NCBI GenBank assembly: GCA_019695295.1 | Contig: JAIBAH010000035.1 | Location: 1-37,258 of the forward strand | DNA: 37,258 bases | Reading direction: 5' to 3' | Source: Bacteroidia bacterium | GTDB lineage: Bacteria; Bacteroidota; Bacteroidia; J057 | Part shown: positions 510-32,391 of the stretch, one piece after another | How positions within the stretch are numbered: position 1 is the first letter of the stretch | Layout: each line of letters starts with the position of its first letter | Translations under genes and position numbers: made by a program | The notes under the pieces: generated by a model | What the model saw: the letters and a program-made list of their open reading frames with translations, nothing else | Told to the model about the DNA's origin: nothing | Databases searched by the model: none

Positions 510-3500
510 ATGAAAAATCTGTTTTTTTTAGCTTGCCTTTTTTATAGTCTGAGTATGTGGGCACAAACCACTCATTTGACGGTTAATGGAAAGTATCTTC
601 TGGGAAATTGCGGGGATACAATTGTACTCAGAGGAGTAAATTATGCTGTGTATAACTGGGGTTATTCCCCCACTCAAATCCGATTTGACCAGATTGCGCA
701 AACTGGAGCAAACGCCGTAAGAATACCCTGGTACGCAAGCGGAAGTCCGGCTTTATATGCAGACTGGGTGAAACTGGATAGTGCGCTTTCCAAATGTATT
801 CAATATGATATGATTCCGATTCTTGATTTGCATGATCAAACCTGTCAGAATGACCCTGCTGCCCTTACAACCATGACGAATTGGTGGACACAACCCTCAT
901 TTCTTGCACTAGAAAACAAGTACAGGCATTCTTTAATCATTAATGTTGCCAATGAGGCATTATTTGTTGCGTGGACTGGAAATCCAGCTACCGCTCAGAC
1001 CACTTTTACCAATACTTATACAACGATTGTGAACAACCTCAGAAATGCCGGTATTCAGGTACCTCTGATGATAGATGGTCCGGATTGTGGCACTAATCTG
1101 GATGTATTGTCGGCTGTAGCATCTACCTTACAGACCAATGACCCTCAGCATAATCTGATATTTAGTGCACATGCTTATTGGTACGGTTATGCAAATAATG
1201 ATTCCTTGACGATGAGAACGAAAATTACCAATGCTGTCAATGCTAATTTCCCCTTTATATTCGGGGAGGTAGCCAATCAGCAAGATGATCAGGTGCTTTG
1301 TCAGTACAATCTAAATTATCGTCCAGTATTGAGTATGTGTCAGGAGTTTAATATCGGATGGTGTGCCTGGTCTTGGGATAACGACGGTTGTCCTAACCGT
1401 CAGGTAACTACAAACGGGAATTTTAGTTCTCTTACGCCGTATGGAAGTGTCATTGTAAATAATCCTTATTTTGGAATCAGTAATACAGCAGTCAGAAGTA
1501 AATATCTGGAGTTTGGTGTATGCAGTTCTGGAAACAATGACCATAACACTAATTATGGAGATAGTAGTTTTGTGAGTAATACTTCAGGGGATTATAATAG
1601 TGCTTTTGGTTTTAATAGTTTGAAGTCCAGTATTTCCGGTAATCATAATAGCAGTTTTGGGTATAATTCTCTGAAATCCAATACTTCCGGTCTCAATAAT
1701 GTGGCGGTGGGAAGTAATGCACTGAGAAGCAATACTTCCGGGAAAAATAATGTAAGTATAGGGAATATGGCTACTTACGCTGCGGTAAACAGTTATGGAA
1801 ATACACATGTAGGTTTTAGTGCAGGCTATAATGCCAAAGGCAGCGGAAATGTAGCCTTGGGAGATTCTGCATTATTTGCGGCTTCAGGCTCTACCGGAAG
1901 CTTTAACACCTCAATAGGGCGCATGACAATGAGGAATCTTACTACTGGAAGAAATAATGTTGCTCTTGGAGATTCCGCCCTGTTTTCTCTGACTACTTCT
2001 GCGAATACAGTTGCAATCGGAAAATCTGCTTTGAAAGGAAACACTACAGGAACCAACAATCTTGCATTGGGAAGTTATGTATTAACCTCCAACTCTACCG
2101 GTAACGGAAATACAGGAATCGGGTTTCAGGCACTGATGAATAACTCTACCGGATCTGGAAATCAGGCTTTTGGGTATCAGGCACTTGCTGCTAACCTTGT
2201 AGGCAGCAATAATATGGCTATTGGATATCAGGCACTCAATGCCAATACTACTTCCAACAATATGGCAATTGGATATCAGGCAATGCAGGTAAATACCTCC
2301 GGCTCCAATAATATGGCGATAGGTTTTCGGGCTCTCCAGAATAATACCACAGCAGGACTGAATGTGGCAATGGGATATTCATCTATGCAAATGAATACAA
2401 CAGGAGCTAATAATGTTGGTGTGGGAGCCAATACACTCAAGGGAAATACTACAGGAGGAAACAATGTAGCCATTGGAGAGTCTGCACTTACAGCCAATAC
2501 CACAGGAAGTACTAGTGTTGCCGTTGGTGGGCAGGCTTTGAAAGCCCAAACAGTAGGGGTGCGCAATATAGCAGTGGGCTATCAGTCTCAACAGGCAACG
2601 GTAAATGGAAACAATAATGTAAGTATGGGTCAAAACAGCATGAATGCCAATACTTCCGGCTCCAATAACGTAGCCTTGGGTACTTATTCGATGAGAGCAA
2701 TGACTACGGGCGGAAGAAATACTGCAATTGGAGATTCTTCCTTAGCCGCTAATCTTGCCGGAGTGGGAAATGTAGGAGTAGGAAGAAGGGCTGGGGCATT
2801 AAGAAGCGATTATACAAACTGTACTTTTTTAGGGCAGAATGCCGACGCAAGTACAGCCGGATTTTCCAATGCAATGGCTTTAGGGAATGGTGCAGTTGTA
2901 AACTCCAGCAACAAAGTAATAGTAGGAAATACCTCAGTGACTTCTATCGGCGGTCAAGTGGGCTGGACAACATTCTCTGACAGAAGATTGAAAACCAACA
3001 TCCGTCCTTCTGAATTGGGCTTGGAATTCATCAATCAACTCAATCCCGTAACCTACGAATACACCGCCGAAGGTCAAAAAGGTATCCGTTACACAGGGCT
3101 GATAGCTCAAGAAGTAGATGAAGCCGCTAAAGGTACTTTCTCCGGTGTGGATAAAAACGGAGAATACTGGGGAATCCGGTATGCAGAACTAACTGTGCCT
3201 TTGGTAAGTGCAGTAAAGGAACAAAATCAGATTATTGAAAATCAGCAATCCCAAATTCAGAGTCTTGAATCTCAAATTCAAAACCTGACTTTAATGCTCT
3301 CTCAACTCAGCACTGATTTACAATCTTGTTGTCTGAAAGAAACCAATGCTAAAACGTCTCAGGCTATCGTTTTAACCGGAGAAAACCCTTATTTGGAGCA
3401 AAATGTACCCAACCCATTTACCAAATCCACAACAATTCAATATTATATTCCTCAAAACGTAAAATCAGCCATTCTTCAAATTCAGAGTGTTAATGGAGAT

Positions 3501-3647
3501 ATCCTTCAAACTGTCGAAATCCAAACAAGAGGGGTGGAAAGTACAGAAATCAAAACGGGTGAATTAAGTTGGGGGACGTATTACTATTCTTTGATTTTAG
3601 ATGGAAAGATATTTCAGACCAGAAAAATGATAATATCAAATCAGTAG
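510..3647 (+). CDS. Secreted GH5-like glycosidase fused to YadA-like repeat fibre, S74 chaperone and T9SS sorting domain
   Basis: This 1045-residue protein has a signal peptide (about 1-19, ending WAQ). Residues 20-335 resemble a GH5 cellulase/mannanase: LRGVNY, NVANEA with candidate acid/base Glu149, HAYWYG, and FGEVANQ with candidate nucleophile Glu253, then WCAWSWDND. From about 341 to 815 come repeats of roughly 17 residues of the NNMAIGYQAL-x-NTTG type, as in trimeric YadA-like heads. Near 820-875 is an endosialidase-type S74 intramolecular chaperone with the Ser823/Lys828 pair in SDRRLK. A Q/N-rich coiled coil (about 890-935), a vicinal Cys940-Cys941 and a type A T9SS sorting domain (from about 958, LEQNVPNPF) follow. 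It probably acts at the cell surface. The substrate is unknown; mannan or beta-glucan are guesses from the family. The parts are clear, but the fusion is unusual. A hairpin lies just downstream. Confidence 0.85.
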   Translation: MKNLFFLACLFYSLSMWAQTTHLTVNGKYLLGNCGDTIVLRGVNYAVYNWGYSPTQIRFDQIAQTGANAVRIPWYASGSPALYADWVKLDSALSKCIQYDMIPILDLHDQTCQNDPAALTTMTNWWTQPSFLALENKYRHSLIINVANEALFVAWTGNPATAQTTFTNTYTTIVNNLRNAGIQVPLMIDGPDCGTNLDVLSAVASTLQTNDPQHNLIFSAHAYWYGYANNDSLTMRTKITNAVNANFPFIFGEVANQQDDQVLCQYNLNYRPVLSMCQEFNIGWCAWSWDNDGCPNRQVTTNGNFSSLTPYGSVIVNNPYFGISNTAVRSKYLEFGVCSSGNNDHNTNYGDSSFVSNTSGDYNSAFGFNSLKSSISGNHNSSFGYNSLKSNTSGLNNVAVGSNALRSNTSGKNNVSIGNMATYAAVNSYGNTHVGFSAGYNAKGSGNVALGDSALFAASGSTGSFNTSIGRMTMRNLTTGRNNVALGDSALFSLTTSANTVAIGKSALKGNTTGTNNLALGSYVLTSNSTGNGNTGIGFQALMNNSTGSGNQAFGYQALAANLVGSNNMAIGYQALNANTTSNNMAIGYQAMQVNTSGSNNMAIGFRALQNNTTAGLNVAMGYSSMQMNTTGANNVGVGANTLKGNTTGGNNVAIGESALTANTTGSTSVAVGGQALKAQTVGVRNIAVGYQSQQATVNGNNNVSMGQNSMNANTSGSNNVALGTYSMRAMTTGGRNTAIGDSSLAANLAGVGNVGVGRRAGALRSDYTNCTFLGQNADASTAGFSNAMALGNGAVVNSSNKVIVGNTSVTSIGGQVGWTTFSDRRLKTNIRPSELGLEFINQLNPVTYEYTAEGQKGIRYTGLIAQEVDEAAKGTFSGVDKNGEYWGIRYAELTVPLVSAVKEQNQIIENQQSQIQSLESQIQNLTLMLSQLSTDLQSCCLKETNAKTSQAIVLTGENPYLEQNVPNPFTKSTTIQYYIPQNVKSAILQIQSVNGDILQTVEIQTRGVESTEIKTGELSWGTYYYSLILDGKIFQTRKMIISNQ
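1500..2860 (+). repeat. In-frame 51-base repeats coding YadA-like head units
   Basis: The coding sequence has a period of about 51 bases, giving 17-residue units such as NNMAIGYQAMQVNTSGS. Units are diverged and some are longer or shorter. The related array in the next large gene spans about 4800-7300. Such repeats stack as a left-handed parallel beta-roll in trimeric adhesin heads. Confidence 0.8.
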
Positions 3648-4692: not shown

Positions 4693-7600
4693 ATGAAAAA
4701 AATAATATTTTTATTGTTTGCGGGACTTGCTACATCAGGAAGCCTTTTGGCACAGCTTAACCTTGGTGTCGGTTCAGGTACTACGGGGTTTGATTACACC
4801 AATATCGGTGTAAATACCAATAATGGAGGAAATGCAGGAGCGGGGAATGTTGCTCTTGGACAACATGCTATGAGAGGAAATGCAGGTACAAATGGTTATA
4901 ATGTAGGGATTGGATATAACGCTTTAGATAATGCTCAAACAACCGGTGCAGATTATAATGTCGCATTAGGGGCTTATAATGGTTGGTTTATTACAACCGG
5001 GGCATATAATACAGCCGTGGGACCTCGTGCTTTATATTGGATGGGTACGGGTAATCGCAATATTGGGGTAGGGCATGCAGCCGGCTACTATATTGGTCAG
5101 GGAACAGGTGCAATCTATAATACTATCATCGGTGACTCCGCTATGTACAGTCCTTTCTCGGGAAATGATGTAACCAATAATGTGATAATCGGAGCGAAGG
5201 CTGCTTATGGTAATACTACCGGCTCTAATACTGTAGCGATAGGCTATGAAGCCGGACGTAAAAATACTTCTGCTTCAGAAAATGTAAGTATAGGCTATCA
5301 GGCAGCACGAGAAAATGCTATAACTTACGCCAATACGTTGGTAGGTGCTTATGCCGGTAGAAACAATACTGGAGGGTTTGGAATAACTGCATTAGGACAT
5401 AGAGCACTTGTAAATAATACATCAGCCCTCTGGAATACTGCTATTGGTGCTTATGCATTAGAAGATGTTACTACTGGGACTCCCAATGACGGATTCGGTA
5501 ACTCAGCCTTAGCTAATCTAACTACTGGTTCGGAAAATATAGGTGTGGGAGCTGGTGCAGGGTTGGGGATTGTAACCGGAAGCAGAAACATTTCTATGGG
5601 CTTTTATTCATTATTTGCCAATAATAACTCTAACAATAATATTGCAATAGGAAGTTACTCTCAATATGCTTCTACTACAGGAAACAACAATATTTCTGTT
5701 GGGACTGCTACTCTTGTAGCTAATACCACAGGTTATTCTTCAGTAGTAATAGGAGATTCTTCAGGTTATAGTAACACTTCCGGTTTTGGGAATACTTTTA
5801 TGGGTTCTAAATCTGGATTTAGCAACACCACCGGTGCTTACAATGTCGCAATTGGAGAGAGGGCAGCCAATTTTAATAATACCGGCTCTTATGGGGTATT
5901 CGTTGGTCAAAATGCAGGCTTTGCTAATACAGCAGGATCTTACAATACTATGGTAGGTCAGGAGGCTGGGTTTAGTACTACTTCAGGGTACGAAAATAGC
6001 TTCTTTGGTGACTGGTCAGGCAGAAATAATACTACAGGGAATGATAATACCTTTATCGGAAATCAGTCCGGGCAGAATAATACAACTGCAAGCAATAATA
6101 CTTACGTTGGAAACCTTTCCGGATATTCTGGAACAACAGGCGTTTTGAATGCTTATTTGGGGAGTTATTCCGGATATTACAGTATTACAGGGTATGGTAA
6201 TACTTATCTAGGTGCTTATAGTGGTTTTGGAGATATACTTGGAGGTACCGGAAGAGGTAATACAGCAATCGGTGATAGCGCAATGTATTCTGTTACTACT
6301 GGAAGCAATAATGTATCAGTAGGTAGAATGGCAATGAGAGGCATTACTACCGGAAGTTGGAACGTGGCAATCGGAGACTCCGCCGCTTTTAACCTGACTA
6401 CTCCTAATTTTGCTATCGCAATCGGAAAGGCGGCATTAAAAAGCAATACTACCGGAAACCTCAATATGGCAATTGGAACCAATGCTTTGTATTCTAATTC
6501 TACAGGAGCGAGTAATACCGCTATGGGCTATGAGGCTTTAAGATCCAATACTACTGGAAACAGTAACCTTGCACTTGGATATCAGGCTCTTTCTTCTAAT
6601 TTAGTGGGGAGTTTAAATATGGCTTTTGGTTATCAGGCATTATTGAATAATACCACTTCCAACAATATGGCAATGGGCTATCAGGCAATGCAGTCTAATA
6701 CTTCCGGCTCCAATAATATGGCAATTGGTTTCCGTGCATTACAAAATAATACTACCGCAGGGTTGAATGTAGCAATGGGTTATACTTCCATGCAAATGAA
6801 TACTACAGGGGTAAATAATGTTGCGGTAGGGGCTAATTCATTGAAGCAAAATCAAACCGGAGGAAATAACGTTGCGGTAGGTGAGTCTGCACTTACAGCC
6901 AATACTACCGGAGGAACAAGCGTGGCTGTGGGCGGTCAGGCATTGAGGTCTCAGACTGTTGGCTTTCGTAATATAGCAGTTGGCTATCAGTCACAGCAAA
7001 ACACAATTGACGGTATCAACAACGTAAGTATGGGTCAAAACAGCATGAACGCTAATACCTCCGGCGCAAATAACGTGGCTTTGGGTACTTATTCCATGAG
7101 AGCGATGACTACCGGCGGAAGAAATACTGCTATTGGGGATTCTTCCCTTACCGCTAATCTTGCCGGCATCGGAAATGTAGCAGTAGGAAGAAGAGCAGGA
7201 GCATTGAGAAATGATTATACCGGCTGTACATTCGTAGGTCAGTTGGCAGATGCTACTGTAGCTGCACTTACCAATGCCACCGCTATCGGAAATGGAGCAA
7301 GTGTAAATGCAAGCAATAAAGTAGTAGTAGGAAACACCTCAGTTACCTCTATCGGCGGTCAGGTAGGCTGGACTACATTCTCTGACAGAAGACTGAAAAC
7401 TGACATCCGCCCCTCAGAACTGGGTCTGGAGTTTATCAATCAACTGAACCCTGTAACCTACGAATACACGGCTGAAGGTCAGAAAGGAATCCGTTATACC
7501 GGACTGATTGCTCAGGAAGTGGATGAAGCAGCCAAAGGTACTTTCTCGGGTGTAGATAAAAATGGTGAGTATATGGGAATCCGTTATGCAGAACTGACTG

Positions 7601-8103
7601 TGCCTTTGGTAAAAGCAGTTCAGGAAGTAAACGGACAAAATCAGACTCAGGACGTACAGATTGCAACGTTAAAGGCGCAAAATGAGGAATTGAAAGCGCA
7701 AAATATTGCTCAGGAGGCAAGAATTGAAAATCTGGAAGCAATTATCACTCAATTTGGAAAGGATTTACAATCCTGCTGCCTAAAATCAAACGAAACCGGT
7801 GCTACAAATACCAAAAGTGTATTGATTCTTTCCGGTGAAAGTCCTGTGCTTGAGCAAAATGTCCCCAATCCCTTTACAAAATCCACAATGATTCAGTATT
7901 ATATTCCTCAAAATGTGAAATCTGCTTTCTTGCAAATTACAGATGTAAATGGAACGGTAATACAAAGTACTGAAATTACAGAAAGGGGCACAAGCAGTAC
8001 AGAAATAAAAACCGGAAATCTTAGCTGGGGTACTTATTTCTATAGCTTAATCATTGAAGGTAAAGTATTTGAAACGAAAAAAATGGTGATTTCCAATCAT
8101 TAA
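4693..8103 (+). CDS. T9SS-exported YadA-like repeat fibre with S74 intramolecular chaperone
   Basis: The 1136-residue product has a signal peptide (1-21, SLLAQ) and then about 800 residues of glycine- and asparagine-rich repeats of the NNVAVGANSL-x-NTTGG type. There is no enzyme domain before the repeats. An S74 chaperone begins at about residue 890 with Ser897/Lys902 in SDRRLK. In phage tail spikes this module drives trimer folding and then cuts itself off. A coiled coil (about 975-1020), a vicinal Cys1028-Cys1029 and a type A T9SS sorting domain (from about 1047, LEQNVPNPF) follow. From the final repeats onward it is almost identical in protein to the GH5 fibre upstream. Likely a trimeric surface fibre or adhesin; the ligand is unknown. 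An intrinsic terminator ends the unit. Confidence 0.85.
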   Translation: MKKIIFLLFAGLATSGSLLAQLNLGVGSGTTGFDYTNIGVNTNNGGNAGAGNVALGQHAMRGNAGTNGYNVGIGYNALDNAQTTGADYNVALGAYNGWFITTGAYNTAVGPRALYWMGTGNRNIGVGHAAGYYIGQGTGAIYNTIIGDSAMYSPFSGNDVTNNVIIGAKAAYGNTTGSNTVAIGYEAGRKNTSASENVSIGYQAARENAITYANTLVGAYAGRNNTGGFGITALGHRALVNNTSALWNTAIGAYALEDVTTGTPNDGFGNSALANLTTGSENIGVGAGAGLGIVTGSRNISMGFYSLFANNNSNNNIAIGSYSQYASTTGNNNISVGTATLVANTTGYSSVVIGDSSGYSNTSGFGNTFMGSKSGFSNTTGAYNVAIGERAANFNNTGSYGVFVGQNAGFANTAGSYNTMVGQEAGFSTTSGYENSFFGDWSGRNNTTGNDNTFIGNQSGQNNTTASNNTYVGNLSGYSGTTGVLNAYLGSYSGYYSITGYGNTYLGAYSGFGDILGGTGRGNTAIGDSAMYSVTTGSNNVSVGRMAMRGITTGSWNVAIGDSAAFNLTTPNFAIAIGKAALKSNTTGNLNMAIGTNALYSNSTGASNTAMGYEALRSNTTGNSNLALGYQALSSNLVGSLNMAFGYQALLNNTTSNNMAMGYQAMQSNTSGSNNMAIGFRALQNNTTAGLNVAMGYTSMQMNTTGVNNVAVGANSLKQNQTGGNNVAVGESALTANTTGGTSVAVGGQALRSQTVGFRNIAVGYQSQQNTIDGINNVSMGQNSMNANTSGANNVALGTYSMRAMTTGGRNTAIGDSSLTANLAGIGNVAVGRRAGALRNDYTGCTFVGQLADATVAALTNATAIGNGASVNASNKVVVGNTSVTSIGGQVGWTTFSDRRLKTDIRPSELGLEFINQLNPVTYEYTAEGQKGIRYTGLIAQEVDEAAKGTFSGVDKNGEYMGIRYAELTVPLVKAVQEVNGQNQTQDVQIATLKAQNEELKAQNIAQEARIENLEAIITQFGKDLQSCCLKSNETGATNTKSVLILSGESPVLEQNVPNPFTKSTMIQYYIPQNVKSAFLQITDVNGTVIQSTEITERGTSSTEIKTGNLSWGTYFYSLIIEGKVFETKKMVISNH

Positions 8104-8694: not shown

Positions 8695-9645
8695 ATGAAA
8701 AGATCAGGAATTTTGCTTGCTGCTTTAATAATCAGTGTTCTGTTGATGCAATTTGTGTGGTATAATCCTCCTGCACAAAAAGCAGAAACTGTCATTGCTG
8801 CGGAAAAAGTAAATCTTGCCCTGCGCCGTACCGGACATTTAATTCTGAAACAGTCTGGCGATAGCACTACACAGATTCCGCCTGTAAAGCAAGTGAGTCA
8901 AAATGTGTGGGAGTTAAGATTGCCTGAGTATTTTCAGTATGATAGTTTACCTTATTTTTTGCAAAGTTCATTGAATATTCACCAAATCCGTTGTAAATAT
9001 AATGTAGCTATTTTTAAATGCAGTGACACGACCTTAGTGAAAGGATATAGTTTTGGGGATATTGCGAATGGACAAAAGGCCCCCTGTACAAACCGTATTA
9101 TGGAGAAGGATTGCTATGATATCCGGCTTACGCTTTTGCCGGAAATGAAAAAAGAGCATTCTTTTATGCTAATTGCCCGGATTGTCAGTGCGTTTTCTTC
9201 AGTTGTATTGTCGGTCATTGCGGTTGTGTATTTTGTGGGGATATACCGTAATTCCCGGAAAGATTTGCCGTTTTCTTCCGGAGAAACAGATTCAGGTTTA
9301 TTGTCACCGGAAGCAGAAGAACGTATCAATATTCCCGTTAAGCCTGCCCTTCGGTTTGCAAATTCGAGCCTGGATGTATCGAATCTTGAGCTTAAATGCG
9401 GGGAAATATGCCACCGGCTGACGTACAGAGAAGCGAAATTGCTTCACTTTTTTGTGCAGCAGGCCAATCAGGTTCTGGAAAGGAATTTTATTTTGGAAAA
9501 TGTGTGGGAGGATGAAGGAATTGTGGTGGGAAGGAGTATCGATATGTTTGTTTCCCGTCTCCGTAAAATGCTGAAGGATGACCCTGATGTTCAGTTGGTG
9601 GCTGTGCATGGAATCGGGTATAAAATGGAAATAGTGGCTACCTGA
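8695..9645 (+). CDS. Membrane-anchored OmpR-type winged-helix transcription regulator (ToxR-like layout)
   Basis: The 316-residue product has an N-terminal hydrophobic segment (about 5-22), an extracytoplasmic region of about 130 residues with four cysteines (100, 109, 131, 140), and a second membrane segment (about 157-184). A linker and a C-terminal winged-helix domain of the OmpR/PhoB Trans_reg_C family (about 219-313: LTYREAKLL, VWEDEGIVVGRSIDMFVSRLRKML, VHGIGYKME) follow. No receiver domain or histidine kinase is present. It should therefore sense something outside the membrane and bind DNA directly, like ToxR or CadC but with the DNA-binding domain at the C-terminus. The topology places the wing domain in the cytoplasm. 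A propeller lipoprotein follows about 100 bases later, and a phased repeat array lies upstream. The signal is unknown. Confidence 0.85.
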   Translation: MKRSGILLAALIISVLLMQFVWYNPPAQKAETVIAAEKVNLALRRTGHLILKQSGDSTTQIPPVKQVSQNVWELRLPEYFQYDSLPYFLQSSLNIHQIRCKYNVAIFKCSDTTLVKGYSFGDIANGQKAPCTNRIMEKDCYDIRLTLLPEMKKEHSFMLIARIVSAFSSVVLSVIAVVYFVGIYRNSRKDLPFSSGETDSGLLSPEAEERINIPVKPALRFANSSLDVSNLELKCGEICHRLTYREAKLLHFFVQQANQVLERNFILENVWEDEGIVVGRSIDMFVSRLRKMLKDDPDVQLVAVHGIGYKMEIVAT

Positions 9646-9670
9646 CTTCAGTGGTTTTGAAGTCAAAAAA

Positions 9671-9678
9671 TATTTTTG
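9671..9678 (+). promoter_or_regulatory. Bacteroidota -7 element before the propeller lipoprotein
   Basis: TATTTTTG is a perfect TAnnTTTG match. It overlaps a TTG codon at 9676 that could be mistaken for a start and argues for a start further downstream. It is 25 bases past the regulator stop, so the lipoprotein may have its own promoter. Confidence 0.5.
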
Positions 9679-9747
9679 AAATTCAGGGACACTAAAAATC
9701 TGTCCGTAATAATTATACAATCATTTCAATTATTTATGAATCGTTTT

Positions 9748-10815
9748 ATGAAAAATCAACATTTTTATTTTTACGCTCTGATACTGTTGCTCGCTGCCTG
9801 CGCAGGACAAAATCAGTCTCAGTTATCTGCAATCAGACCCAATGAATCTGTTATTGCCTGCTCATTTACTCCTCCGGAAGCAAAAGTCTCGGGTACTGAG
9901 CGTCATAAAGAAGCTCCTCCGGCATTTGTGCATGCTATTTTACAGGACAAGTCTGGTAAGATTTGGTTTGGCGGATGGGAAAGCGGGCTGAACTCATACG
10001 ATTTCAGTGATTTTAAGGAGTATGAGAAAGTGAACGAAATGGGAAGGCATGTTCATACTTTATTTGAGGATAAGTCCGGTAAACTCTGGATGGGAACATG
10101 GCAGAACGGTGTACATATCTATGATGGGACTTCCTTTCAGAATTTTACCCAAAAAGACGGACTCAATGACAATTATATACATAGTTTTTATCAGGATAAA
10201 GAAGGAAATATCTGGATTGGTACGGCTGCGGGCGTCTGTATGTATGATGGTAAAAGTTTTATCAATATCAGTGAAAGAGAAAAGCTGACTCAAAAAAGTA
10301 TTTACAAAATTACAGCCGATAAATCCGGAAAAATCTGGTTTGGAGGAGATGAGGGAATATTTTATCATGACAATCAGGGTTTTCATTCTTTTACAAAAGC
10401 GGATGGTAGCAATTATCAGGTAGTGCGTGGTATTGTTGAGGATAAAAAGGGTGTCATCTGGTTTGGGAGTCAGGAAGGGTTATTCTCTTACGATGGAAAA
10501 AAAGTCAGTCATTTATCTTTAAATGGCAAAGAGCAGTCACAACAGGCCGTCTGGACAGTATATGAAGACTCCAAAGGCAATATCTGGTTCGGACTGTATG
10601 ATTTTCATGGTTTTGGCGGTGGCTTGTGTCGCTATGACGGCAAATCCTGGACTTGCTTCACCGAAAAAGAAGGCCTGCCCGGCAACAGGGTATTTAGCAT
10701 CTGTGAAGATAATAAAGGTAATTTATGGGTCGGTACATCCAATGGAATTTGTAGTTTTACTGAAAAAGGGATAACCTTTTTTGAAAAAATCTTTGACCCA
10801 GAGAAGGGCTGTTGA
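9748..10815 (+). CDS. Propeller-repeat lipoprotein (two-component-regulator propeller type)
   Basis: ATG 9748 begins a lipoprotein signal (MKNQHFYFYALILLLAAC, lipid cysteine 18); ATG 9736 is an alternative four codons earlier. The 355-residue protein has seven repeats of the Reg_prop kind between about residues 64 and 340, each D-K-x-G-x-IWFG followed by GLxxYDG, for example DKEGNIWIGTAAGVCMYDG. Seven repeats fit one complete beta-propeller. In hybrid two-component systems such propellers form the periplasmic ligand-sensing part, with 14 repeats and a kinase attached. Here there is no membrane segment, kinase or DNA-binding domain, so the propeller is free and lipid-anchored. The gene follows the membrane regulator, which suggests a partner role (inference). 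It could also be a stand-alone sugar-binding lipoprotein. Confidence 0.85.
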   Translation: MKNQHFYFYALILLLAACAGQNQSQLSAIRPNESVIACSFTPPEAKVSGTERHKEAPPAFVHAILQDKSGKIWFGGWESGLNSYDFSDFKEYEKVNEMGRHVHTLFEDKSGKLWMGTWQNGVHIYDGTSFQNFTQKDGLNDNYIHSFYQDKEGNIWIGTAAGVCMYDGKSFINISEREKLTQKSIYKITADKSGKIWFGGDEGIFYHDNQGFHSFTKADGSNYQVVRGIVEDKKGVIWFGSQEGLFSYDGKKVSHLSLNGKEQSQQAVWTVYEDSKGNIWFGLYDFHGFGGGLCRYDGKSWTCFTEKEGLPGNRVFSICEDNKGNLWVGTSNGICSFTEKGITFFEKIFDPEKGC

Positions 10816-28920: not shown

Positions 28921-31900
28921 ATGAAAATCACTTTATTTAAAAACGCATTATTTTTCTTTTCTCTGCTACTTTCTGTTAATCTAAATGCCTCTCACTTTGG
29001 AGGAGGAAACCTTTGGTATGAATGTCTGCCCGGAGGGTGTGAATACCGGATTTTTCAGACGTTTTATTTTGATTGTGCAAGTGCTTCAGCTGCCAATTAT
29101 TTGCCAGCAGGATTAAGCAATACGAATCCACCTTCATCTTCCCCTTTATCTGCTATGGGACAAGGTTGTACTGCAACTATCAGTAGTCTTACCTGGAAGA
29201 TGATGTATTTTGAAGAGGTAACTCCTGTCTGTCCAAGCATTCAAACAGCATGCACTACCCCAGGTGCAACTATCAATGGAGTAGTAGCTGTTACCTATTA
29301 TTCAGACTATAATGCATGTATTTATGCTCAAGGATGTAGTGAGGTTACTATATCATGGTCAAGTTGTTGTAGAAATTATGCGATTACCTCAGGTGCAAGT
29401 GGGAATGGGATTTACTTTAGCACTACCATTGATTTAAGTCTTTCTTCTTGTAATAGTTCCCCTGTATTTGAAAACTCCGCTTTTGCTTATATCTGTGCAG
29501 GACAAACGCAAACTATCAGTCAGTCTGCTTATGATTTGGACGGGGATTCGCTTTCCTATTCATTAGGGCCCTGTTACCAAAGTGCAACTCAGCCGGTAAC
29601 GTACAATGCAGGGTATAGTCCTGCTTCACCTTTGGGACCGGGATGGTTAGTTAATTTAGATCCCGTTTCCGGAGAAATGACTTTTGCTCCAAATCCATCG
29701 GGACCTATTGTCGTCGGTGTGGTCTGTATTTATGTGAATGAGTGGAGAAACGGTGTACAAATCGGGCAAGTAAGCAGGGATATGCTTTTGTATGTAGTAA
29801 ACTGTACTACTCAGGTGGCAAACGATGCCCCGGAGGTAGCGATTCAGGCTATGTCCGGAGGAAATATGGTTCATGCAAACCGGATTGAAGTATCTGCCGG
29901 ACAGCAAATTTCTTTTGATATGGTTTTTACAGACCCTGATACCGGTCAAAGCCTTTCCTTTCACCGGAATCATATTCCGCTTACCGCTTCATTAACCCCC
30001 ATATTTGGAAGCAGTGCATTAACCTTACATTTTGACTGGACACCTTCTGCCGCTGATACCGGAAATCACTATGTCTGGGTAGATGTCTTTGATGATGCCT
30101 GCGTCATTAATGCACATACTTCCCGGTATCTTGATATTGTGGTAAAGGAAGCATCTTTGAATGCCATAGTAACGCCTACTCCGTGCGGGGTAAATGCCGG
30201 CGCAATAGACCTTACGGTACTTTCCGGAATGCCTCCCTTTACTTTCCTCTGGAGCAATGCCGCCACTACGGAAGATCTGAGTGGTTTATCCGGTGGGGTC
30301 TATTCTGTTGCAGTTACAGATAGTATCGGAGCCGTATTTAATGCCACCTATTATGTAAACAATCTTGGAGGGGTGGTTACCAATCCGGTGGTTTCGGGAT
30401 TTACCTGTAATCAGAATAGCGGAACCATAGACCCGGGTGTTTCGGGTGGAACCCCGCCTTATCAGTATGCCTGGAGTAACGGAGCTACGACCCCTGTTCT
30501 GGGAAACCTTTCTCCCGGAGGGTATTCTGTAAATATTACGGATTCCTTAGGGTGTTTTCTCCATACGGTTGTCATTGCAACGGCACCTTGTTTCTCTAAA
30601 ATCGGGGGGATACTTTTTTCGGATGGTAATGGAAACTGCATAAAAGACAATGGGGAAAATGTTATTCCTTACGGACTGATTGATATTAATCCGGGAGGGA
30701 TTCTGTTTTCAGATGTCAATGGATATTATGAAGTGCTGGTAGATACCGGGACTTTTGCACTCAATTATCTTCTTCCCAATAATCCTTATATGAGCATTTC
30801 CTGTCCGGCTATGGCCAGTTTTAATGTACATATCCCTCAGCTGGGGATAGATTCTACGGATTTTAATATCCCTGTCGCTGTTGATTCGGTCATAGACCTG
30901 AAAGTTTCCTTAACCATCAATGGAATTGCTCCCGGTATATCGAATCAGAGCTCTTATATTCACTATAAAAATATGTCCTTTGACCCGGGAGCCCCTGCAC
31001 AGATTACCTATCAGCATTCCCCGCTTTTATTTAATCCTTCTTTTTCGCTTCCCCCTTCTACTTATACTCCGGCTACCCAAACCGCTGTCTGGAACTTTCC
31101 AACCGGAATTCCCTACTCTCCGAATTATCATATAATCTCTATTCTTTCTCAGGTAGATACTACCGCAACGATTGGAGATACTGCCGTAGGGTATGTACAG
31201 ATATTGCCGATAAACGGAGACGCAGACATGACTAATAATACTGATACTGCACATAGAGTTGTAGTTGCATCACTCGACCCCAACTACAAGGAAGTTACTC
31301 CTTCCGGCGTTACCAATCAGGGATATATTCCATATAATACACCCAAACTTGAATATACCGTTCATTTCCAAAATACCGGAACGTGGTACGCTGAGTATGT
31401 AATCATTAAAGATAAGTTAGATGCTAATCTGGATTTTACTTCTTTGGAATATCTGGCTGCAAGCCATAACTGTACCTTTGCAATTGATGACAATGATACT
31501 TTGATTATTACTTTTGCGAATATTCACCTTCCGGATTCAGGGACAGACTTAGCGGGAAGTCAGGGATTTGTGCGTTTTTCCTTCAAGCCCAAGCCCGGCC
31601 TCGTGCCTGAAACGACTGTTTCCAATACTGCTGGGATTTATTTTGATTTTAATGCTCCGGTAATTACTAATACGGTAAACAGTACTTTTCATCTTCCGGC
31701 CACAATTGTTTTATCCAATCCGATTTGTGAAGGAAATGCCGTTACTGCAACCGTTCAGAATGGAGTGCCGCCTTATTTGTGGAACGGGAGTGTTCCGGAT
31801 AATACGGGGGTTTATTATTTTCCTGCCGGACAAGCCGGGAATTATACGATTACCTTATCAGATGCTTTTGCGCCGGTAAGTATGAATTATACTGTAACGG

Positions 31901-32391
31901 ATGTTCCGGATAATGCAGACTTCAATTATACTTCTGCAGGAAATACATTTTTATTTACCCCTCAAAATTCGGGTTATCCCGATTACCAGTGGGATTTCGG
32001 AAACGGCACCACCAGTACACTCACTTCCCCAACAGTGACCTATGCTCAGTCGGGGAATTACAACGTTATCCTCACCGTTTCCAATGAATGTGGCTCCTTT
32101 ACAGATACAATGACGGTTTCTGTTACCACCGGTCTTGAAGGCACTGCATTTGCGCAATCTGTTAAGCTCTATCCAAATCCGGCTTCTCAAATTGCGGTAT
32201 TAACCTTCGATAATCCGGAAAAATCAGAATATACTCTTGTAATCCGGGATATAACCGGCAGGCTGATTTCTTCTCAAATCCAATCCGGCCATGAATTCCA
32301 AATCGAAACCGGGAAATTGGCTTCCGGAGTTTATACCTGGGAGTTGAGGGGAGAGAAAGTGGCTACCGGGAGGTTTACGGTAGGGGAGTAG
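28921..32391 (+). CDS. T9SS-exported multidomain surface protein with SprB-type and PKD repeats
   Basis: The 1156-residue protein has a signal peptide (about 1-23, NLNA|SHFGGG). A cysteine-rich N-terminal domain (about 24-300: WYECL, CEYRIF, SWSSCCRNY) follows, of the kind that opens many gliding-associated Bacteroidota proteins. Two SprB-type repeats (about 413-480 and 483-558; LWSNAATTEDLSGLSGGVY) come next, then an SdrD-B-like segment from about 559 (GILFSDGNGNCIKDNGE), a DUF7619/DUF11-like module (about 779-921; FQNTGTWYAEYVIIKD) and a PKD domain (about 1015-1070; YQWDFGNGTT). A type A T9SS sorting domain (from about 1079, LYPNP) ends it. It is probably a cell-surface adhesin; the ligand is unknown. 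A paralog starts at 34170. Confidence 0.88.
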   Translation: MKITLFKNALFFFSLLLSVNLNASHFGGGNLWYECLPGGCEYRIFQTFYFDCASASAANYLPAGLSNTNPPSSSPLSAMGQGCTATISSLTWKMMYFEEVTPVCPSIQTACTTPGATINGVVAVTYYSDYNACIYAQGCSEVTISWSSCCRNYAITSGASGNGIYFSTTIDLSLSSCNSSPVFENSAFAYICAGQTQTISQSAYDLDGDSLSYSLGPCYQSATQPVTYNAGYSPASPLGPGWLVNLDPVSGEMTFAPNPSGPIVVGVVCIYVNEWRNGVQIGQVSRDMLLYVVNCTTQVANDAPEVAIQAMSGGNMVHANRIEVSAGQQISFDMVFTDPDTGQSLSFHRNHIPLTASLTPIFGSSALTLHFDWTPSAADTGNHYVWVDVFDDACVINAHTSRYLDIVVKEASLNAIVTPTPCGVNAGAIDLTVLSGMPPFTFLWSNAATTEDLSGLSGGVYSVAVTDSIGAVFNATYYVNNLGGVVTNPVVSGFTCNQNSGTIDPGVSGGTPPYQYAWSNGATTPVLGNLSPGGYSVNITDSLGCFLHTVVIATAPCFSKIGGILFSDGNGNCIKDNGENVIPYGLIDINPGGILFSDVNGYYEVLVDTGTFALNYLLPNNPYMSISCPAMASFNVHIPQLGIDSTDFNIPVAVDSVIDLKVSLTINGIAPGISNQSSYIHYKNMSFDPGAPAQITYQHSPLLFNPSFSLPPSTYTPATQTAVWNFPTGIPYSPNYHIISILSQVDTTATIGDTAVGYVQILPINGDADMTNNTDTAHRVVVASLDPNYKEVTPSGVTNQGYIPYNTPKLEYTVHFQNTGTWYAEYVIIKDKLDANLDFTSLEYLAASHNCTFAIDDNDTLIITFANIHLPDSGTDLAGSQGFVRFSFKPKPGLVPETTVSNTAGIYFDFNAPVITNTVNSTFHLPATIVLSNPICEGNAVTATVQNGVPPYLWNGSVPDNTGVYYFPAGQAGNYTITLSDAFAPVSMNYTVTDVPDNADFNYTSAGNTFLFTPQNSGYPDYQWDFGNGTTSTLTSPTVTYAQSGNYNVILTVSNECGSFTDTMTVSVTTGLEGTAFAQSVKLYPNPASQIAVLTFDNPEKSEYTLVIRDITGRLISSQIQSGHEFQIETGKLASGVYTWELRGEKVATGRFTVGE

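Follow-up and report, generated by a model that had tools for sequence, protein, structure and literature searches.

A beta-mannanase-type GH5 domain joined to a predicted S74-chaperoned fibre with a type IX sorting signal in a Bacteroidia genome

Can a bacterium carry a polysaccharide-cutting enzyme on a phage-type fibre, and would such a fibre stay on the cell or leave it? The question is raised by a gene in the window, by which we mean the whole 37,258-nucleotide stretch of Bacteroidia DNA analysed here, corresponding to contig C58 of a 4.9-Mb assembly that is 97% complete. A single intact ORF (510-3647, + strand) encodes 1,045 amino acids and holds the whole fusion in one chain, bearing out the domain order of the original prediction, namely a GH5-like glycosidase, repeats, an S74 module, a coiled coil and a T9SS domain. 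The features of this gene, and the related fibre gene that follows it, are as follows:

510..563, + strand: signal peptide, residues 1-18 (MKNLFFLACLFYSLSMWA ahead of QTTH; type I by eye)
567..1514, + strand: GH5 beta-mannanase-type catalytic domain, residues 20-335 (about)
954..956, + strand: codon of E149, predicted acid/base, aligned with the NE of mannanases
1266..1268, + strand: codon of E253, predicted nucleophile, aligned with the GE of mannanases
1515..1553, + strand: short linker, residues 336-348, between the GH5 model and the first repeat
1554..2954, + strand: 17-residue NNVAIG-type repeats, beta-solenoid stalk, residues 349-815 (about)
2955..3209, + strand: Peptidase_S74 / intramolecular chaperone (ICA) domain, residues 816-900, with the dyad S823, K828
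3210..3338, + strand: coiled coil, residues 901-943, with a-positions I909, I916, I923, L930 and L937, then C940-C941
3375..3644, + strand: T9SS type A C-terminal sorting domain (CTD), residues 956-1045
4693..8103, + strand: fibre paralogue without the enzyme head (repeats, S74, T9SS), 70% identical over 344-1044, with S74 and Por_Secre_tail matched

Downstream of the second fibre gene, adjacent ORFs at 8695-10815 encode a transcriptional regulatory C-terminal domain and a two-component regulator propeller, and at 28921-32391 lies a 1,156-residue protein with SprB repeats, DUF7619, PKD and a T9SS sorting domain.

The enzyme domain

Profile searches matched both the GH5 and the S74 parts of the chain. 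For the enzyme, the Pfam Cellulase/GH5 model matched the isolated N-terminal part at 3e-23 (83.1 bits; curated cut-off 23.5) and missed it when the full chain, or its first 650 residues, served as query, presumably through the HMMER composition filter reacting to the repeats. Full-chain Pfam and NCBIfam scans missed the sorting domain as well as GH5, and isolated pieces find both. A single-sequence search of the PDB gave seven clear matches, all from the mannanase group (8.7e-25 to 4e-17), and a profile built from 18 homologues matched eight mannanase-group entries at 6e-55 to 1e-37, with the next GH5 entry, a cellulase, at 6e-11. The AlphaFold2 model of the domain (pLDDT 90.7) matched the fold of mannanases at Z 39-42 (top 41.7; rmsd about 2 A over about 290 residues) and that of cellulases at Z 27.

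R71, H108, N148, E149, H221, Y223, E253 and W287 were invariant in 18 of 18 homologues and aligned with the solved enzymes. Among these are the two residues that the original prediction had picked out as catalytic-type glutamates, E149 and E253; with the profile matched and both glutamates in place, each aligned with a catalytic Glu of solved mannanases, the domain once described as GH5-like is of the beta-mannanase type and has an intact active site. Mannanase activity and the substrate are predicted on this basis. Fold and active-site residues are shared with the GH5 beta-mannanases of the Bacillus/Thermomonospora/Streptomyces group (1WKY, 2WHL, 1BQC and 4Y7E, which we take to be subfamily GH5_8), at about 25% identity domain-wide. 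Known enzymes of that group stand alone or carry binding modules, whereas the GH5 domain in the window is joined to a fibre. A scan of neighbouring ORFs showed no genes for mannan utilisation.

The stalk and its S74 domain

The stalk repeats follow the motif NNVAIGxxALxxNTTGx, with 17 of 23 inter-motif intervals exactly 17 residues long. A model of residues 340-1045 placed two short strands per repeat across most of the stalk, followed by a helix (903-942) and a six-strand sandwich (973-1042). When compared with viral proteins, the repeats matched PHROG virion structural and tail spike families (up to 3.7e-82), and the best viral structures for the stalk model were phage and giant-virus proteins, several of them named S74/ICA (E down to 6.5e-13). 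Foldseek against the PDB gave weak matches for the stalk, none at E 0.001 or better; the CTD of RemA was among them, in keeping with a sorting domain. The description of the repeats as YadA-like holds for the resemblance in motif, but not for the Pfam YadA_head profile, which had no match in the window repeats and does match two or three of the other S74 proteins. With trimeric autotransporters such as YadA, the chain has in common a (predicted) distal N-terminal head, a repeat rod and a C-terminal outer-membrane end. It differs in its predicted T9SS export, in the unmatched YadA_head profile and in the lack of a translocator barrel: Pfam scans found no match to a YadA anchor, and the C-terminus is the T9SS sandwich.

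Pfam Peptidase_S74 matched residues 823-872 at 8.6e-14 (52 bits; cut-off 22). A profile built on S74 domains of this genome and of others matched solved phage fibres and MYRF in the PDB, where a search with the single sequence gave none. The Ser-Lys dyad is present as S823-D824 and K828, its two residues five apart, and both Ser and Lys were kept in 70 of the 70 S74 family matches fetched, these being high-scoring ones. In endosialidases and MYRF, S74 trimerises and the Ser-Lys pair then cuts the chain (PMC3742443); by analogy with this family, the window chain would trimerise and may likewise cleave itself. In the model of the lone chain, the S74 part reached a pLDDT of about 25-35, which is to be expected if folding needs a trimer and proves nothing. 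In ten related stalks, the first cysteine of the Cys-Cys pair after the coil (3327-3332) is invariant (C940) and the second nearly so (C941); placed just before the sorting domain, the pair is a possible inter-chain disulphide clamp (alignment A4).

Two known systems come close to this architecture. Phage endosialidase tail spikes (K1F endoNF) have a polysaccharide-degrading enzyme ahead of a trimeric stalk, followed by a C-terminal S74/ICA domain with a Ser-Lys dyad, an order that the window chain resembles, whereas the window chain has a GH5 TIM barrel, a solenoid of 17-residue repeats, a bacterial signal peptide and a T9SS domain after S74. MYRF has a head, a beta-helical stalk, S74/ICA with the dyad and then a membrane tether, and its cleavage frees the trimeric head; unlike the window protein, it is a eukaryotic transcription factor with a transmembrane segment in place of the T9SS signal.

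Probable origin of the fusion within a fibre family

The fibre belongs to a family within its own genome, which gave ten S74 matches, several of them in genes with a stalk end of the window type (roughly 59-82% identity). No Pfam domain was found in the first 336 residues of the paralogue at 4693..8103, nor in the N-terminal pieces of ten fibre or S74 proteins of this genome. Several further fibre genes of this genome (L009, L010, L013, L015 and L016, on C13, C68, C200, C165 and C170) lie at contig ends, and the family may exceed the ten S74 matches counted. Across the class, S74 proteins are very common, occurring in 196 of 295 genomes. Most of the long ones (class loci L052-L124) end roughly 100-145 residues past the S74 start, and roughly a fifth extend about 200-250 residues past it, often with a T9SS sorting domain.

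We then compared 90 repeat-free segments of 71 long S74 proteins of the class with Pfam and found no enzyme domain, in a Pfam-dependent survey whose sample favoured high-scoring long proteins, so that rare enzyme heads elsewhere are possible. The segments gave collagen, YadA head, phage fibre parts and a few unknown or stray families, and the window GH5 segment passed as control. An earlier survey of the heads with pieces of 650 residues was not counted as a negative, since the corresponding piece of the window chain had failed too. Bacteroidota S74 ('tail fiber domain') proteins with a T9SS CTD resemble the window chain in their repeats or other fibre parts, S74, coiled coil and type A CTD, and differ from it in that the 71 long ones have no recognisable enzyme domain. 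A literature search on S74 proteins of Bacteroidota found no functional paper in the library searched.

A survey of the domain order, as proposed in the original prediction, located the same fusion in a single genus, where two species have it, and nowhere else among the genomes searched. The second species, KLAP112 (the only one of the two other genomes of the genus examined to have the fusion), keeps the linker junction between GH5 and repeats, with 81% identity in GH5 and 82-87% in the proximal repeats. Between the two, nonsynonymous divergence was 0.09-0.12 (pN 0.12 for GH5) against a pS of 0.72-0.85, at which synonymous sites are near saturation; judged by these substitutions, the fusion is under strong purifying selection in both species.

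A search of 395 genomes of the class found homologues of the GH5 domain in 12; those from beyond the genus all lack a fibre, and most of them end in a T9SS-type sorting domain. Such GH5 proteins of Bacteroidota (the C73 gene, L047-L050 and L125-L134) share the GH5 subfamily at 36-67% identity and mostly carry a terminal T9SS-type sorting domain, but they have neither fibre nor S74 and comprise about 360-520 residues. The C73 gene is an unfused paralogue in the same genome, 67% identical and with its own sorting-type domain at the end. In the tree, the fused GH5 domains of the window and KLAP112 form one clade (100/99), sister to the C73 paralogue (91/97) and nested among unfused proteins. This looks like one fusion after duplication, in which the GH5 domain of a gene for a mannanase plus sorting signal was joined to the fibre cassette of the co-resident S74 family. 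From about residue 690, the chain is often closer to paralogues of its own genome than to the KLAP112 orthologue (98% vs 82% over 825-874; 73-75% vs 46% over 951-998). The pattern in the aligned sequences suggests that the C-terminal cassette of the fibre has been exchanged, or has undergone gene conversion, among co-resident genes (window 4693-8103, L012, L013 and L014).

Proposed export, display and release

The isolated sorting domain scored 23.6 bits against the NCBIfam type A model TIGR04183 (cut-off 23) and 20 bits in a longer context, and 26 bits against the Pfam sorting model, just below its cut-off of 27. T9SS components are encoded in the genome: the SprA translocon scored 2074 bits and the sortase PorU 1199 bits. 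T9SS substrates exit SprA CTD-first, bound to PorV (PMC10994853).

The reading that we consider reasonably probable is that the gene encodes an extracellular endo-beta-mannanase on a phage-type fibre, exported by the T9SS, displayed and then released. Sec would move the chain to the periplasm, and the T9SS would draw it CTD-first through SprA. First to surface, beside the anchor, would be the S74 domain with the coiled coil, which would gather three chains; the repeats would then be templated into a rod from the C- to the N-terminus. Three mannanase domains would thus end at the far tip, last and furthest out, on a rod that could reach roughly 13 nm by repeat count, assuming about 27 turns of roughly 0.48 nm each. 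PorU could strip the sorting domain and attach the chain to the cell surface. Since S74 has kept its Ser-Lys dyad, completion of the trimer would probably also cut the chain before S823, so that the rod would be displayed first and then freed as a stable trimer. The dyad sits upstream of the sorting signal, and a cut there would part the enzyme rod from the T9SS signal. We propose, tentatively, that S74 acts as a folding sensor for self-shedding, such that only finished trimeric mannanase rods leave the sorting anchor, much as MYRF frees its transcription factor.

The original prediction had an enzyme on a T9SS-exported fibre held away from the cell. The domain order, the intact GH5 catalytic centre and the T9SS genes support that picture, but the self-cleaving dyad, which the prediction had not raised, makes permanent display only one of two outcomes, and its position upstream of the sorting signal means that shedding may be the likelier. 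A permanently tethered fibre, in which S74 trimerises with no cut, or with halves that stay together, and PorU-anchored trimers hold the mannanase off the cell, would fit the type A signal and the PorU sortase, and the conserved Cys-Cys past the coil could staple the trimer beside the anchor. We regard this outcome as possible, if somewhat doubtful, given that the dyad is intact here and in all of the 70 fetched matches and that characterised dyad-bearing relatives cut themselves off (PMC3742443). It is unlikely that the GH5 domain serves mainly to bind mannan, as a lectin-like tip that needs little catalysis and is carried by one of several adhesive fibres. The other scanned fibre and S74 proteins of the genome, with no recognisable enzyme heads, would suit such an adhesin; the full active-site set is nevertheless kept in both species under purifying selection, and degraded pseudo-enzymes usually lose the glutamates.

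Two further readings concern what the gene is rather than what its product does. The resemblance of stalk and S74 to virion proteins could point to a prophage or phage-derived tail spike in place of a cellular surface enzyme, yet the chain has a signal peptide and a T9SS sorting domain, about ten S74 genes are scattered through the genome, and the scanned neighbours include housekeeping genes such as priA, with no virion genes among the scanned ORFs. A search of viral contigs for relatives of the GH5 or S74 stretch confirmed none; for GH5, there was one weak phage match (27% identity) and there were weak plasmid matches. We consider a phage origin of this kind very improbable. Slighter still is the chance of an assembly or annotation artefact, in which a repetitive fibre contig was misjoined. 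Contig ends do hold several further fibre genes of the genome, but the orthologue has the same junction in the independent KLAP112 assembly, GH5 and proximal stalk diverge similarly from that orthologue, and the longest exact match to any compared co-resident paralogue is 26 bases, not long enough to confuse an assembler.

Phage spikes already offer the precedent of an enzyme on an S74 fibre; its form as a T9SS-exported bacterial mannanase appears to be new within what was searched. As a released or displayed mannanase rod, the protein would be a bacterial counterpart of the phage depolymerase spike: a polysaccharide-cutting enzyme on an S74-chaperoned fibre, exported by the T9SS. The enzyme at its predicted tip can be assayed and offers a direct handle on whether such fibres are exported by the T9SS, whether they trimerise outside the cell and whether they are anchored or shed by the self-cleaving domain.
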